In this document: piece by piece, positions 3,989 to 61,211 of the stretch
Position numbering within the stretch: the stretch's first letter is position 1
How the letters are laid out: each line of letters begins with the position of its first letter
NCBI RefSeq assembly: GCF_014270065.1
Contig: NZ_JACNME010000018.1
Location: 1-64,000, forward strand
Direction of reading: 5' to 3'
Length of the DNA: 64,000 bases
Source: Quadrisphaera sp. RL12-1S
GTDB taxonomy: Bacteria > Actinomycetota > Actinomycetes > Actinomycetales > Quadrisphaeraceae
Made by a program: the position numbers and the translations under genes
Notes under the pieces: generated by a model
What the model saw: only the letters and a program-made list of their open reading frames with translations
Databases searched by the model: none
What the model was told of the DNA's origin: nothing

Positions 3989-5688
<1,700 letters not shown>

Positions 5689-56864: not shown

Positions 56865-56907
56865 CGCCCTTCTGACGCGCGGGCGCCGCGGCAGCGCCGC
56901 CACCCAC

Positions 56908-56913
56908 TAGCGT
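56908..56913 (+). promoter_or_regulatory. -10 hexamer TAGCGT upstream of the NCS2 permease
   Basis: TAGCGT in the 103-nt gap, followed about 50 nt later by the GTG. A GGGTGAGGGTGAGGG purine stretch serves as the ribosome-binding site. Confidence 0.35.
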
Positions 56914-56967
56914 CAGCGGGCCGCGCAGCACGGGCGGCGACCACAGCACGGGTGAGGGTGAGGGTTC

Positions 56968-58281
56968 GTGGCGCGCACGAGCGGGTTCTGGCAGCTGCAC
57001 GGTGACGGGCGGACCATCGAGCAGGGGGCCGTGGTGGCCCCGGAGGAGCGCCTCAGCTGGCCGCGCACGGTGGGCATCGGGATGCAGCACGTGGTGGCGA
57101 TGTTCGGCGCCACCTTCCTCGTGCCGCTCATCACCGGCTTCCCGCCGTCGACCACGCTGTTCTTCTCGGCCGTGGGCACGGCCCTGTTCCTGCTGCTGAC
57201 GCGCGGGCGCCTGCCCAGCTACCTGGGCTCCAGCTTCGCGTTCCTCGCTCCGATCGCGGCGGCCAAGACGGCGGGCGGCCTGTCGGCGGCGCTCGGCGGC
57301 GTCGTCGTCACCGGGGTGCTGCTGGCCCTGGTCGGGCTGCTGGTGCAGCGCGCCGGCGCCGCGTGGATCGAGCGGCTGCTGCCGCCGGCCGTCACCGGGA
57401 CGATCGTGGCGCTCATCGGCCTCAACCTGGCCCCCGCGGCCTGGAACAACGTCAAGGGGGCGCCGGTCACCGCCGTCGTGACGATCGCCGCGATCGTGCT
57501 GGCGTCGGTGCTGCTGCGCGGGCTGCTGGGGCGGCTCTCGATCCTGCTGGGCGTGCTGGTCGGCTACCTCGTGGCCGTGGTCCGCGGGGAGGTGGTCTTC
57601 GACCAGGTGAGGGCCGCGGCCTGGGTGGGGCTGCCGGCGTTCTCCACGCCCACCTTCGACCTCGCGGTGATCGTCGTCTTCGTGCCGGTGGTGCTCGTGC
57701 TCGTGGCGGAGAACGTCGGGCACGTCCGCTCCGTGGCCGCGCTGACCGGGCGCGACCTCGACCCGCTCACCGGCCGGGCGCTCCTGGCCGACGGCCTGGC
57801 CACCACGCTCGCGGGCCTCGGCGGCGGGTCGGGCACCACCACCTACGCGGAGAACATCGGCGTCATGGCCGCCAGCCGCGTCTACTCCACCGCGGCCTAC
57901 GCCGTGGCCGCCGGCGCCGCGCTGGTGCTCAGCCTCTGCCCGAAGTTCGGGGCGGTCATCGCCACCGTCCCCGCCGGCGTGCTCGGCGGTGCCGGCACCG
58001 TGCTGTACGGGCTCATCGGCGTGCTCGGGGCGCGGATCTGGGTGCAGGCGCGGGTGGACTTCTCCCGCCCCGCCGTCCTCACCAGCGCCGGGGTGGCGCT
58101 CATCATCGGGATCGCTGACTACACGCTCACCGTGGGCGGCTTGACGCTCACGGGCATCGCGCTCGGCACCCTCGCCGCCGTCGGGCTCTACCACCTCATG
58201 ACGGCCCTCGGCCGCTGGCGCGGCACCGACCCCGGCGACGGCCCCCGCTCCGAGCCGGCCAGCCCCGCCTACCGCGTCTGA
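56968..58281 (+). CDS. Uracil-xanthine permease (NCS2 family)
   Basis: Nucleobase-proton symporter, 437 residues with 12-14 helices. UraA-like features: SWPRTVGIGMQHVVAMFGATFLVPLITGFPPSTTLFFSAVG, GRLPSYLGSSFAFLAPI, then LVAENVGHVRSVAALTGRD (the Glu-containing uracil-binding helix) and GGGSGTTTYAENIGVMAASRVYSTAAY. The presence of TTTYAEN favours uracil. It lies alone, without upp or pyr genes. GTG start. Its 3' side is the first palindromic element. Confidence 0.9.
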   Translation: MARTSGFWQLHGDGRTIEQGAVVAPEERLSWPRTVGIGMQHVVAMFGATFLVPLITGFPPSTTLFFSAVGTALFLLLTRGRLPSYLGSSFAFLAPIAAAKTAGGLSAALGGVVVTGVLLALVGLLVQRAGAAWIERLLPPAVTGTIVALIGLNLAPAAWNNVKGAPVTAVVTIAAIVLASVLLRGLLGRLSILLGVLVGYLVAVVRGEVVFDQVRAAAWVGLPAFSTPTFDLAVIVVFVPVVLVLVAENVGHVRSVAALTGRDLDPLTGRALLADGLATTLAGLGGGSGTTTYAENIGVMAASRVYSTAAYAVAAGAALVLSLCPKFGAVIATVPAGVLGGAGTVLYGLIGVLGARIWVQARVDFSRPAVLTSAGVALIIGIADYTLTVGGLTLTGIALGTLAAVGLYHLMTALGRWRGTDPGDGPRSEPASPAYRV

Positions 58282-58306
58282 GCCTCCCGACCGACCTGCG
58301 GCCCCT

Positions 58307-58383
58307 GTGACGCCGGACAGGCAGAAGTCCTCGTCAGCTGCTCCGCAGGGTGCTCCAGGGGAGTTCTGCCTGTCCGGCGTCAC
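58307..58383. repeat. Palindromic element copy 1 (upstream of the DUF559 gene)
   Basis: Left arm 58307-58326 and right arm 58364-58383 are perfect 20-bp reverse complements (GTGACGCCGGACAGGCAGAA); after one mismatch five more pairs extend the stem inward to 58332/58358, with a loop of 25 nt. It is 26 nt after the permease stop and 49 nt before the DUF559 gene. The same arm sequence recurs in copy 2 at 59281. Confidence 0.8.
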
Positions 58384-58384
58384 C

Positions 58385-58401
58385 TGTGGACAAGATCCAC
58401 A
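58385..58401 (+). promoter_or_regulatory. Small dyad TGTGGA-n5-TCCACA before the DUF559 gene
   Basis: Perfect 6-bp dyad directly after palindromic element copy 1, 31 nt before the GTG. The encoded AbiEi-like winged helix is of a type that autoregulates, so an operator is plausible. Confidence 0.35.
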
Positions 58402-58431
58402 TCTACGCCGTCGGTTCGCCACGGTGATCGG

Positions 58432-59322
58432 GTGGACGTCAACGAGGTGTGCAGGGCCCTGTGGAGGAACGGCGGCGTGGCGGTGCGCCGAGAGCTCGCC
58501 TGCGACTGGCGCGCCCTGGAACGCGCTCTGCTGAGCGGCCGGGTGCTGCGCCTGGCGCGCGGTGTCTACGGGCTGTCCAGCGGAGCCGCCCCGCTCGCGG
58601 CGGCGGCCAGCGTCAGCGGTGTGGCCTCGCACCTGAGCGCGGCACAGCTGTGGATGCTGGACGTGGTCGCGCCGCCGGCGCTGCCGCACGTGACCGTCCC
58701 GCGCCACCGCAGGCTCGTCAGCGACCAGGTGGTGCGCCACTGGGCGGACCTACCGCCCGGTGACGTGGACGGTCGCGTCACCACACCGCTGCGGACGGTG
58801 GTCGACTGCGCCCGCACGCTGCCCTTCCCCGAAGCTCTCGCTGTGGGCGACTCCGCCCTGCGGCGCGGGCTCGTGACCCGCTCCGAGCTGCTCGCACGTG
58901 CGGACGCCACCCGCGGCGCCGGGAGGGCGGCGGTGCGGCGCGTCGCTGAGCACGCGTCGGGTCGGCCTGCCAACCCGTTCGAGTCGGCGCTGCGAGGCAT
59001 CGCGCTGGGCGCCGGACTGACGGGCCTGCTGCCGCAGGTCTGGCTGGACGGCGACTCCGGCAGCATCCGTCCCGACCTCATCGACCCGGCGCTGCGGCTC
59101 GTCGTCGAGGCGGACAGCTTCGAGTGGCACGGCAGGCGCTCCGCCCTGGCTGCGGACTGCCACCGCTACGACGAGCTGGTCGCCGACGGGTGGACGGTCC
59201 TGCGGTACGCGTGGGAGCAGGTGATGTTCGACCGGGAGTGGGTCGCCAGCACCCTGCAGCGGACCGCACGCAGGTGCGCTGTGACGGCCGACATGCAGAA
59301 GTCCCTCAGCGTCGCCGCGTGA
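58432..59322 (+). CDS. AbiEi-like antitoxin-domain/DUF559 (Vsr-fold) protein
   Basis: 296-residue protein. The N-terminal 60 residues are a winged helix like the AbiEi antitoxin domain (GGVAVRRELACDWRALERALLSGRVLRLARGVY). The C-terminal DUF559 domain has a PD-(D/E)XK/Vsr-like layout: Glu184 in NPFESALRG, Asp215 in IRPDLIDPALRLVVEADSFEWHG with Glu226 and Asp228, His and Arg in WHGRR, then VLRYAWEQVMF. The toxin AbiEii is absent. The last 14 residues (VTADMQKSLSVAA and stop) are encoded by palindromic element copy 2. Function is unknown; nuclease activity is inferred. GTG start. Confidence 0.75.
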   Translation: MDVNEVCRALWRNGGVAVRRELACDWRALERALLSGRVLRLARGVYGLSSGAAPLAAAASVSGVASHLSAAQLWMLDVVAPPALPHVTVPRHRRLVSDQVVRHWADLPPGDVDGRVTTPLRTVVDCARTLPFPEALAVGDSALRRGLVTRSELLARADATRGAGRAAVRRVAEHASGRPANPFESALRGIALGAGLTGLLPQVWLDGDSGSIRPDLIDPALRLVVEADSFEWHGRRSALAADCHRYDELVADGWTVLRYAWEQVMFDREWVASTLQRTARRCAVTADMQKSLSVAA

Positions 59323-59357
59323 GGGGCTCGCAGGGACTTCTGCCCGTCCGGCGTCAC
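59281..59357. repeat. Palindromic element copy 2 (overlaps the 3' end of the DUF559 gene)
   Basis: Left arm 59281-59306 and right arm 59332-59357 are reverse complements at 22 of 26 positions. The right arm matches copy 1 almost fully (core GTGACGCCGGACGGGCAGAA on the complement), the left arm is diverged at four positions and lies inside the gene. Loop is 25 nt, the same as the copy 1 loop. Confidence 0.8.
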
Positions 59358-59405
59358 GCGGGCGCGGGCCGGCGGGACGCGCGGGGCGGGGTGAGGGGGC
59401 GGCAC

Positions 59406-59411
59406 TAAGGT
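59406..59411 (+). promoter_or_regulatory. -10 hexamer TAAGGT of proS (leaderless)
   Basis: TAAGGT lies 6 nt before GTG 59418. No ribosome-binding site is possible in the gap, so a leaderless mRNA is likely. Confidence 0.55.
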
Positions 59412-59417
59412 CGGGGC

Positions 59418-61211
59418 GTGCTGTTGAGGACCTCCACGCTGCTCCTGCGCACCCTGCGCGAGGACCCGGCCGACGCCGAGCTGGCCAGCCACAAGCTGCT
59501 CGTGCGCGCCGGGTACATCCGCCGCGCCGCCCCGGGCGGCTTCTCGTGGCTGCCGCTGGGCCTGCGGGTGCTGCGCAAGGTCGAGCGGATCGTCCGCGAG
59601 GAGATGGACGCCATCGGCGCCCAGGAGGTGCACTTCCCCGCGCTGCTGCCGAAGGAGCCGTACGAGGCGACCGGCCGGTGGACGGAGTACGGTCCCAACC
59701 TCTTCCGCCTGCAGGACCGCCGCGGCGCCGACTTCCTCCTCGCGCCCACCCACGAGGAGATGTTCACGCTGCTCGTGAAGGACCAGTGCTCGTCCTACAA
59801 GGACCTGCCGCTGAGCCTGTACCAGGTGCAGACGAAGTACCGCGACGAGGCGCGGCCCCGCGCGGGCCTGCTGCGCGGCCGCGAGTTCGTCATGAAGGAC
59901 AGCTACTCCTTCGACGTCGACGACGCCGGGCTGGAGAAGGCCTACCAGCGCCACCGCGAGGCCTACGTCCGCATCTTCGACAGGCTCGGGCTGGAGTACG
60001 TCATCGTCTCCGCGGTCTCCGGCGCCATGGGCGGCTCGGCCAGCGAGGAGTTCCTCCACCCCAGCCCCCAGGGCGAGGACACCTACGTCCGCTCCGCCGG
60101 CGGGTACGCCGCCAACGTCGAGGCGGTCACCACGGTCGCGCCCGAGCCGGTGGCCTGGGACGACGCCCCGCCCGCCGTGGTCCGCGACACCCCGGACACC
60201 CCGACCATCGACACGCTGGTGGCGGTCTCCAACCAGCTGCACCCGCGCGAGGACCGCGCCTGGGAGGCCGCGGACACCCTCAAGAACGTCATCGTGCTGC
60301 TGCGCCACCCCGACGGCTCCACGGAGCCGCTCGCGATCGGCGTGCCCGGAGACCGCGAGGTGGACCCCAAGCGCCTCGAGGCCGCCGTGTCGCCCGCCAC
60401 CGTCGAGCCGTTCGACGAGGCGCAGTTCGCCCAGCACCCCGAGCTGGTCAAGGGCTACATCGGCCCCGGCGGCCTGGGCCTGCGCCTCACCGGCGAGACC
60501 GACGAGCACGGCCAGCCCGTCACCACCGGGATCCGCTACCTGCTCGACCCGCGCATCGCCCCCGGCACCGCGTGGGTCACGGGCGCCGACCAGCCCGGCC
60601 GGCACGTCTTCGGGCTCGTGGCCGGCCGGGACTTCACCGGCGACGGCACCATCGACGCCGCCGAGGTCCGCGACGGCGACCCCGCCCCCGACGGCTCCGG
60701 CCCGCTGGAGACCGCCCGCGGCATGGAGATGGGGCACATCTTCCAGCTCGGCCGCAAGTACGCGCAGGCCCTGGGCCTGCAGGTGCTCGACGAGAACGGC
60801 AAGCTCGTCACGGTCACCATGGGCTCCTACGGCGTGGGCGTCTCCCGCGCCGTCGCCGCCATCGCCGAGGCCGGCCACGACGAGCTGGGCCTGGTCTGGC
60901 CGCGCTCGGTGGCCCCCGTCGACGTGCACGTGGTCGTCGCGGGCAAGGACGCCGCGGTCGTCGAGGGCGGCGAGCGCCTCGCCGCCGAGCTGGTGGCCGC
61001 CGGCCTCGACGTCCTCCTGGACGACCGCCCCCGCGTCAGCCCCGGCGTGAAGTTCAAGGACGCCGAGCTGGTGGGCGTGCCCACGATCGTCACGGTGGGC
61101 AAGCGCCTCGCCGACGGCGTCGTCGAGGTCCGCGACCGCGCCTCCGGCGAGCGCACGGACGTGCCCGTCGAGGGCGCCGCGCAGCACCTCGTCGCGCTCG
61201 TGCGCGGCTGA
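59418..61211 (+). CDS. proS: Prolyl-tRNA synthetase
   Basis: Class II aminoacyl-tRNA synthetase, 597 residues of the bacterial type with an editing (INS) insertion. Motif 1 region [21 protein letters not shown], motif 2 [27 protein letters not shown], motif 3 [16 protein letters not shown]; the INS domain runs from about residue 225 to 405 ([21 protein letters not shown]...). The C-terminal anticodon domain begins [16 protein letters not shown] and ends [24 protein letters not shown]. Starts [20 protein letters not shown]. Leaderless GTG (see 59406). Confidence 0.96.

Follow-up and report, generated by a model that had tools for sequence, protein, structure and literature searches.

A nuclease gene bracketed by its own palindromes in Quadrisphaera: a possible counterpart of REPIN/RAYT systems with an unrelated enzyme

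In the REPIN/RAYT systems of Pseudomonas, E. coli and Stenotrophomonas, as described in the consulted parts of PMC2817692 and PMC3116915, a gene is flanked by its own palindromes, one copy is present per type, and hairpin diversity tracks the protein; RAYTs are further described there as behaving like resident, selected genes (PMC3116915). Here we describe a locus with similar features in a 64,000-nt stretch of Quadrisphaera sp. RL12-1S (the window; positions 1 to 64,000 of contig NZ_JACNME010000018.1, forward strand), in which a gene with a predicted AbiEi-like DNA-binding half and a DUF559-type nuclease half lies between two copies of a palindromic element. Judging from sequence comparisons, we consider it rather likely that the gene and its palindromes form a two-part genetic element that would work like REPIN/RAYT with an unrelated enzyme.

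The likeness extends to the structure of the element, which consists of two inverted arms, a fixed length and a variable interior paired for its first six positions only, to its scattering over the genome (except for the hairpin of one paralogue, L075), and to the partner gene, which has its own palindrome type on either side, although such flanking was not detected in all homologues. Unlike REPINs, the arms carry no GTAG head as judged by eye, the genomes in which elements were counted hold roughly 3 to 40 of them (the covariance-model counts being lower bounds), and the hosts are Actinomycetota. The enzyme combines AbiEi with an EDxHD/Vsr-fold nuclease and is not a Y1 transposase, and a search for Y1_Tnp (PF01797, RAYT) yielded no match in the host genome, with 6 of 14 control genomes positive. 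Since the defining Y1 enzyme was not found, the unit is not a member of the REPIN/RAYT group and would instead work like one.

Other described systems share parts of the arrangement. The EDxHD homing endonuclease I-Bth0305I, which dimerises on a target of nearly 60 bp (EDxHD family, consulted parts of PMC3943268), resembles it in catalytic-domain fold, conserved residues and build as a multidomain DNA-binding nuclease; the gene described here differs in lying between genes and not in an intron or intein, in its AbiEi-like DNA-binding half, and in that its bracketing palindromes also occur alone elsewhere. The AbiEi antitoxin and the COG5340 regulators correspond to the N-terminal fold, and AbiEi binds two 23-bp inverted repeats (PMC3985639, in part), but in our case this fold is fused to a nuclease, and no AbiEii toxin gene of an AbiE type IV toxin-antitoxin pair adjoins it, the neighbours being an NCS2 symporter and proS. 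With the mismatch repair enzyme Vsr the likeness is one of fold alone. CGTC-tagged REPs are also dispersed palindromes without a known transposase partner, yet the consulted parts of PMC3733652 give them stems of 8-9 bp and loops of 4-5 nt, a mainly alphaproteobacterial distribution and no partner gene, whereas a partner gene was found here and the stems reach about 20 bp or more. For a DUF559 protein of Caulobacter, a role in repair like that of Vsr has been proposed in a paper whose text does not contain the word palindrome (PMC12907096), and the portions of the open-licence literature that we searched held no description of a DUF559/AbiEi-nuclease-palindrome arrangement. The components of the unit are as follows.

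58305..58385, + strand: palindromic element copy 1, upstream; conserved core 58307-58383, arms of about 20-24 nt, variable interior; 84.1 bits with covariance model R1
58432..59322, + strand: coding sequence of 296 amino acids with a GTG start; AbiEi-like DNA-binding half plus DUF559/EDxHD-like (Vsr-fold) nuclease, predicted function
58432..58959, + strand: residues 1-176, predicted AbiEi antitoxin fold (winged helix plus C-terminal domain), after 6y8q and PADLOC AbiEi
58972..59283, + strand: residues 181-284, predicted nuclease domain, fold as in I-Bth0305I, 3hrl and Vsr; E184, D215, E226, H233 and D242 conserved
59279..59359, + strand: palindromic element copy 2, downstream, covering the end of the coding sequence; 76.5 bits with covariance model R1
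58307-58326 (+), 58364-58383 (-), 59281-59300 (+) and 59338-59357 (-): arm matches to GTGACGCCGGACAGGCAGAA with at most 3 mismatches

The initial annotation had described four arms with a common core, and GTGACGCCGGACAGGCAGAA indeed matches at all four places within 3 mismatches, with 0.02 such matches expected from shuffles. An ungapped scan returned the 25-nt loop that had been reported for both hairpins (58307-58383 and 59281-59357), and the pairing given for copy 2 was recovered as 22/26 (85%); the conserved stretch extends 1 base beyond the core noted earlier, on either side. Folded as single-stranded DNA, the copies reach z scores of -7.5 (copy 1) and -6.2 (copy 2), with 0/200 shuffles as good. 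It should be kept in mind that model R1 was built with both window copies among its input. Between the palindromes there is one gene, as claimed, represented by the single open reading frame (ORF) at 58432-59322. Copy 2 overlaps its final ~14 codons and stop codon, and the C-terminus of the nuclease (...DMQKSLSVAA) is therefore encoded by the palindrome; the downstream palindrome overlaps the ORF end in seven other Quadrisphaera units too. Rfam gave nothing meaningful for positions 56900-60000 of the window, the best hit being a microRNA model over copy 2 at E 0.2.

We sought the same arrangement in relatives. The nuclease protein has matches in 48 of the 59 genomes searched, host included, and 20 regions holding the closest homologues were taken for covariance-model and de novo hairpin scans. 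Each of the eight intact Quadrisphaera units has an R1 palindrome both upstream and downstream; the units come from six genomes, of which two hold a second one. Weaker R1 palindromes surround the units in two genomes of the same family, G011 and G007, in the latter on one side only at E 0.3. Genome-wide, 8 of 58 genomes match R1, namely the six Quadrisphaera (all five besides the host among them), G010 from the same family, and G050 with one weak match; per-genome counts are both-strand matches with at most 80 candidates scored, and thus lower bounds. Around most of the more distant homologues, the de novo search revealed lineage-specific palindromes on both sides; among the 20 regions it found none at L118 and a palindrome on one side only at L117 and L127.

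A larger comparison covered the best 80 of 246 relatives in named genomes, a set that includes genomes already examined, with loci from Quadrisphaera, Nocardioides, Kribbella, Kineosporia, Terrabacter, Knoellia, Intrasporangium, Phycicoccus and other actinobacterial genera. Each gene was scored by the best match of an upstream to a downstream hairpin, and 272 other genes from the same loci served as controls. A score of 14 or more was obtained by 47/80 nuclease genes and 6/272 controls, and one of 18 or more by 29/80 and 0/272 (Mann-Whitney p 4.9e-22 for nuclease against control scores). When the 11 loci from already examined genomes were left out, the counts were 37/69 and 23/69, respectively. 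Upstream hairpins were also compared with the downstream hairpins of other loci: at protein identity below 60%, 84/6150 pairs reached 14 and 2/6150 reached 18, and the fraction reaching 14 was 29/122 at 60-75% identity and 29/48 above 75%. These comparisons suggest that hairpin sequence varies by lineage and mostly tracks protein type. In matches scoring at least 16, the upstream element ends a median of 79 bp before the matched start (50-165 bp, 10th-90th percentile), the downstream element begins a median of 10 bp past the matched end, and the median element length is 85 nt. Two of the counted scores, L202 (34.5) and L217 (17.5), belong to short GGTATGCCG-type hairpins that may be another repeat. 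At these loci, from Phycicoccus and Terrabacter, short GGTATGCCG...CGGCATACC hairpins flank the gene farther out than usual and perhaps constitute a separate repeat family.

A plasmid search with the nuclease protein gave no match, and a phage search gave one record, MT837367.1 ('Bacteriophage sp.', L370), with no matched bracket and a score of 9. Judged by its genes and by a GC content of 75%, this record, which carries the nuclease homologue, resembles part of an actinobacterial chromosome. We also observed that the NZ_VDMJ records (L163, L165), listed as 'Streptomyces sp. NP160', appear to belong with Quadrisphaera; the record name looks wrong.

It had been considered at the outset that the arm core might be confined to this locus, or else abundant with no association with DUF559 genes. 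Neither is the case: searches with the arm and the core palindrome located 16 elements in the host genome, two at the window locus and 14 elsewhere (contigs C1, C2, C4, C6, C7, C10, C12 and C13, with three doublets among the elements), and the association is the one given by the control comparison at scores of 18 or more and by the eight bracketed Quadrisphaera units. Eleven elements have arms of type A (GTGACGCCGGAC...GCAGAA) and five of type B (GTCCCGCCGAGC...GCAGAA). Element length is near-constant, 81 nt in 14/16 and 82 nt in 2/16 when aligned with two flanking bases on each side, and paired changes that keep the stem occur at 9 of 22 predicted pairs, several of them being differences between A and B. 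In 45 elements from several Quadrisphaera genomes, an element's own left and right halves pair better than halves taken from different elements in the outer arm, where the result owes part to the A/B type split, in the core and in the first six interior positions (permutation p <=0.0005 each); deeper in the interior, self-pairing is not above cross-pairing (p 0.46). The interiors are otherwise unrelated between copies (median identity 0.45), and in 42 elements conservation ends 1 base beyond the arms. Several elements are located at gene 3′ ends, and elements on C4, C7 and C13 lie between convergent gene ends, as judged with a simple purpose-made gene caller. None of the 14 dispersed elements adjoins another DUF559 gene of the host genome; those genes have other palindromes or none.

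The paralogues in the host genome display matched hairpins of their own. Scores of 18 or more were found for 6 of 10 DUF559/AbiEi-like genes and 0 of 64 control genes, and scores of 14 or more for 7/10 and 1/64; since gene starts are uncertain, the hairpin search was extended 250 bp into the ORF, with controls handled alike. Among the ten genes, L132 is an AbiEi_4 protein without a Pfam DUF559 match, and L131 and L133 were included by protein similarity only. Paralogues on C3 and C5 are bracketed by other palindromes in the de novo search. At the C5 paralogue these are GATCATGCAGAAGACCCGCAC hairpins (L074:4149-4224 and 5230-5301), with a further GATCATGCAGAAGACCCGCAC copy, with the same flank, at C1:481533 (L043:1501) and other GCAGAAGACCCGCAC hairpins on C12, C15 and C16. 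The AbiEi-like/nuclease paralogue L130 (G000 C1, ~666923-667951) has a matching ATGGGCGTTGTGCGCACAC hairpin on both flanks, with a score of 39. A second, unrelated dispersed palindrome, the GAGGTGGCCGTCTCCCCATGATCACG hairpin (L069:992-1053, G000 C10 ~108491-108552), is matched several times in G003, with some further matches in G000, G001, G002 and G004. We also found broken nuclease remnants at L128, in the host genome (G000 C19:29707-30024), and at L129 (G004 C5:412663-413286).

Scattered hairpins are not limited to Quadrisphaera. Nine Nocardioides-type genomes were searched with the arms of the X and Y units, allowing 1 mismatch and counting opposed arms with starts 63-65 nt apart. The X-type genomes G059-G062 hold 4, 12, 3 and 6 X hairpins, respectively; outside them there are 8 in G063, 3 in G067, 1 in G065, and none in G064 and G066. 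Y hairpins number 5, 6 and 4 in the Y-type genomes G063, G064 and G065 and are absent from the other six; of these, G066 and G067 carry related units whose outer arms differ and do not fit the Y pattern. G063 was first known for a Y-type gene alone, and two of its X hairpins are 972 bp apart; the single prediction that a nuclease gene would lie between them held, the protein being 77% identical to an X-type protein.

The protein itself had been read as an AbiEi-like winged helix fused to a DUF559 domain, a reading borne out by profile and fold matches. Pfam DUF559 passes its cut-off (23.3 vs 20.6 bits), Pfam AbiEi_4 is weak (E 0.012, under its cut-off), and the PADLOC AbiEi match is clear (E 2.2e-16). 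In an AlphaFold2 model (pLDDT 94.7, pTM 0.89; Foldseek was also run), predicted residues 1-176 align with AbiEi 6y8q (Z 10.4, root-mean-square deviation (rmsd) 4.7, 169 residues aligned) and residues 181-284 with I-Bth0305I 3r3p (Z 13.1, rmsd 2.1, 96 aligned), which ties with the endonuclease-like protein 3hrl (Z 12.6, rmsd 2.0, 92 aligned); Vsr 1cw0 comes next (Z 11.2, rmsd 2.1, 100 aligned), a likeness of fold only. D215, E226, H233 and D242 are invariant and E184 is at least 90% conserved among 64 sequences; we read the pattern E...D...E...H...D as EDxHD, a label of our own. The ratio of nonsynonymous to synonymous substitution rates (dN/dS) is 0.18, 0.16 and 0.10 in three species pairs, and in both pairs split by domain the nuclease domain lies below the rest of the protein. 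By these ratios the enzyme is under purifying selection.

The unit interrupts the following neighbours, both of them outside it.

56968..58281, + strand: NCS2 nucleobase:cation symporter, upstream flank
59418..61211, + strand: proS, proline--tRNA ligase, downstream flank

Comparison with syntenic empty sites, which the initial annotation had proposed, revealed a locus without the unit in G008, where NCS2 is next to proS and no nuclease gene intervenes. When the outer flanks of five Quadrisphaera units are placed on G008, the gaps left range from -26 to 44 bp (for the window unit, 1 bp); some 80-130 bp at the junction are, however, not alignable, and the G008 NCS2 frame runs to 11 bp before proS. 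In 12 proS loci the gene is co-oriented with proS in 6 and opposed in 6, and the A and B lineages, which are separate in the protein phylogeny (support 95/88 and 92/91), sit there in opposite orientation; with regard to B replacing A at this site, species order within Quadrisphaera was not resolved in the comparison. Most close homologues in other species keep their gene neighbours, some being inverted in place, and the second Quadrisphaera units are located elsewhere. The nuclease gene is mostly inherited in place. Shared neighbours and low dN/dS together indicate a resident, selected gene like the RAYTs and not a freely jumping element. As to the single elements, G004 carries one that G005 lacks at the corresponding intergenic site; comparison of G001 with G000 at C1 and C7 yielded no cleanly readable insertion, because the G001 palindromes at 483200 and 503859 are at the edges of non-matching segments.

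The comparisons above record the bracketing, the tracking of hairpin and protein types, the scattered copies, the near-constant length, the paired stem changes and the purifying selection, and the mechanism that we propose builds on them. Its first part would be the hairpin of about 80 nt, with two inverted arms of ~24 bp and an interior of near-fixed length and free sequence; its second part would be the mostly vertically inherited nuclease gene between two copies of its own hairpin. An AbiEi-like winged-helix dimer would bind both inverted arms, a proposal drawn from the binding of 23-bp inverted repeats by AbiEi and the dimerisation of I-Bth0305I on nearly 60 bp, and the nuclease domains would then meet over the hairpin interior, which would explain why its length is near-fixed and its sequence free. 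The hairpin or cruciform may then be nicked or cut by the Vsr-fold domains, probably in a single-stranded state at a fork, and repair of the break may copy the hairpin elsewhere, or convert and invert the bracketed unit where it stands. The upstream copy probably doubles as an operator of the nuclease gene.

Several observations weigh against such a mechanism. The initial annotation had suggested a Vsr-like nuclease tied to palindromic repeats by analogy with REP/RAYT; bracketing, dispersal, lineage-specific palindromes and the G008 locus without the unit speak for the analogous unit and the association holds, but propagation by the nuclease is unproved, as its binding, cutting and moving of hairpins are inferred from sequence and not observed. 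A hydrolytic nuclease makes no strand-transfer intermediate, so that any copying must use host repair, and nearly all interiors differ, which indicates that recent copying is rare. No exact insertion event with its junctions was found in the loci compared, and in 42 elements no direct repeat at k=2-10 stood clearly above cross-pairs as a target-site duplication, which old insertions could have lost. Among homologue loci, 33/80 score below 14, 8 of them lacking a hairpin on at least one side, and 3 of the 10 DUF559/AbiEi-like genes in the host genome score 11 or less. In addition, 14 of the 16 host elements are not beside this nuclease gene, the bracketed paralogue unit L075 has no scattered copies of its hairpin, the remnants L128 and L129 lack an R1 palindrome and a strong matched pair (scores 12 and 10), and the X hairpins of G067 (three, none at X-unit spacing) and G065 (one) occur outside X-type genomes.

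Two other explanations deserve weighing, and we regard each of them as unlikely. If the palindromes were operators only, that is, autorepression sites of the AbiEi-like protein with perhaps a small regulon and nothing mobile, the inverted repeats that AbiEi binds in its own promoter (PMC3985639, in part) and the position of the upstream palindrome, 50-165 bp before the matched start, would find a simple explanation. This leaves unexplained the copy that regularly lies downstream, on or past the stop codon, the elements between convergent gene ends on C4, C7 and C13, the doublets and the presence or absence of an element between species, as well as the conserved nuclease residues. Alternatively, and with no better prospects, the unit could be homing: the nuclease would cut a palindrome or empty site and recombination would copy in the whole cassette, single palindromes being targets or scars, and since the site is symmetric the cassette could enter in either orientation. 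The best fold match of the nuclease domain, which is the homing endonuclease I-Bth0305I in a tie with 3hrl, the even split of orientations at proS with A and B opposed, and the close pairs in other genera that are inverted in place are all consistent with homing. The units, however, are mostly vertical and in place, the flips may be plain recombination between inverted hairpins, and single palindromes stand at unrelated sites without the flank homology that homing needs. Moreover, proS-region sites without the unit were scanned and carried no clear single palindrome (best hairpin score 11.5), and an outer-flank comparison, which listed places where the two outer flanks of a unit lie near each other in another locus, gave no other pair of a unit and a single-palindrome site among the loci compared.

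Much less probable still is that the palindromes are miniature elements of an unrelated transposase with the nuclease gene as cargo between two copies: any composite element would give bracketing and scattered copies, but here one protein family is bracketed in many genera by palindromes that differ, the type of hairpin mostly follows the protein, no Y1_Tnp was found in the host genome (the only transposase family searched for), and target duplications, which old insertions might no longer show, were not seen. We can practically dismiss ordinary terminators or mRNA-stabilising hairpins that are alike by chance or local duplication, which would suit GC-rich stem-loops of which several lie at gene 3′ ends, as they are contradicted by the near-fixed length with a free interior, by lineage-specific arms that track protein type, and by two-sided matching that is specific to the nuclease family and missing in control genes.

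The two-part element of nuclease gene and hairpin may have a wider meaning. We find it evenly balanced whether there is in Actinomycetota a separate, convergent class of mobile or domesticated REPIN-like palindromes, kept and spread by hydrolytic AbiEi-EDxHD nucleases, each genome holding several nuclease-hairpin pairs that differ in specificity. REPINs have been thought to depend on a single enzyme family, the RAYTs; if an unrelated nuclease maintains such hairpins, the partnership of hairpin and enzyme arose at least twice, and the enzyme need not be a transposase. The natural variety of matched enzyme/hairpin pairs would make their specificity directly testable. If the reading is true, many DUF559-type genes of Actinomycetota, now of 'unknown function', would gain a testable role as hairpin-partner enzymes and not as repair or restriction enzymes.
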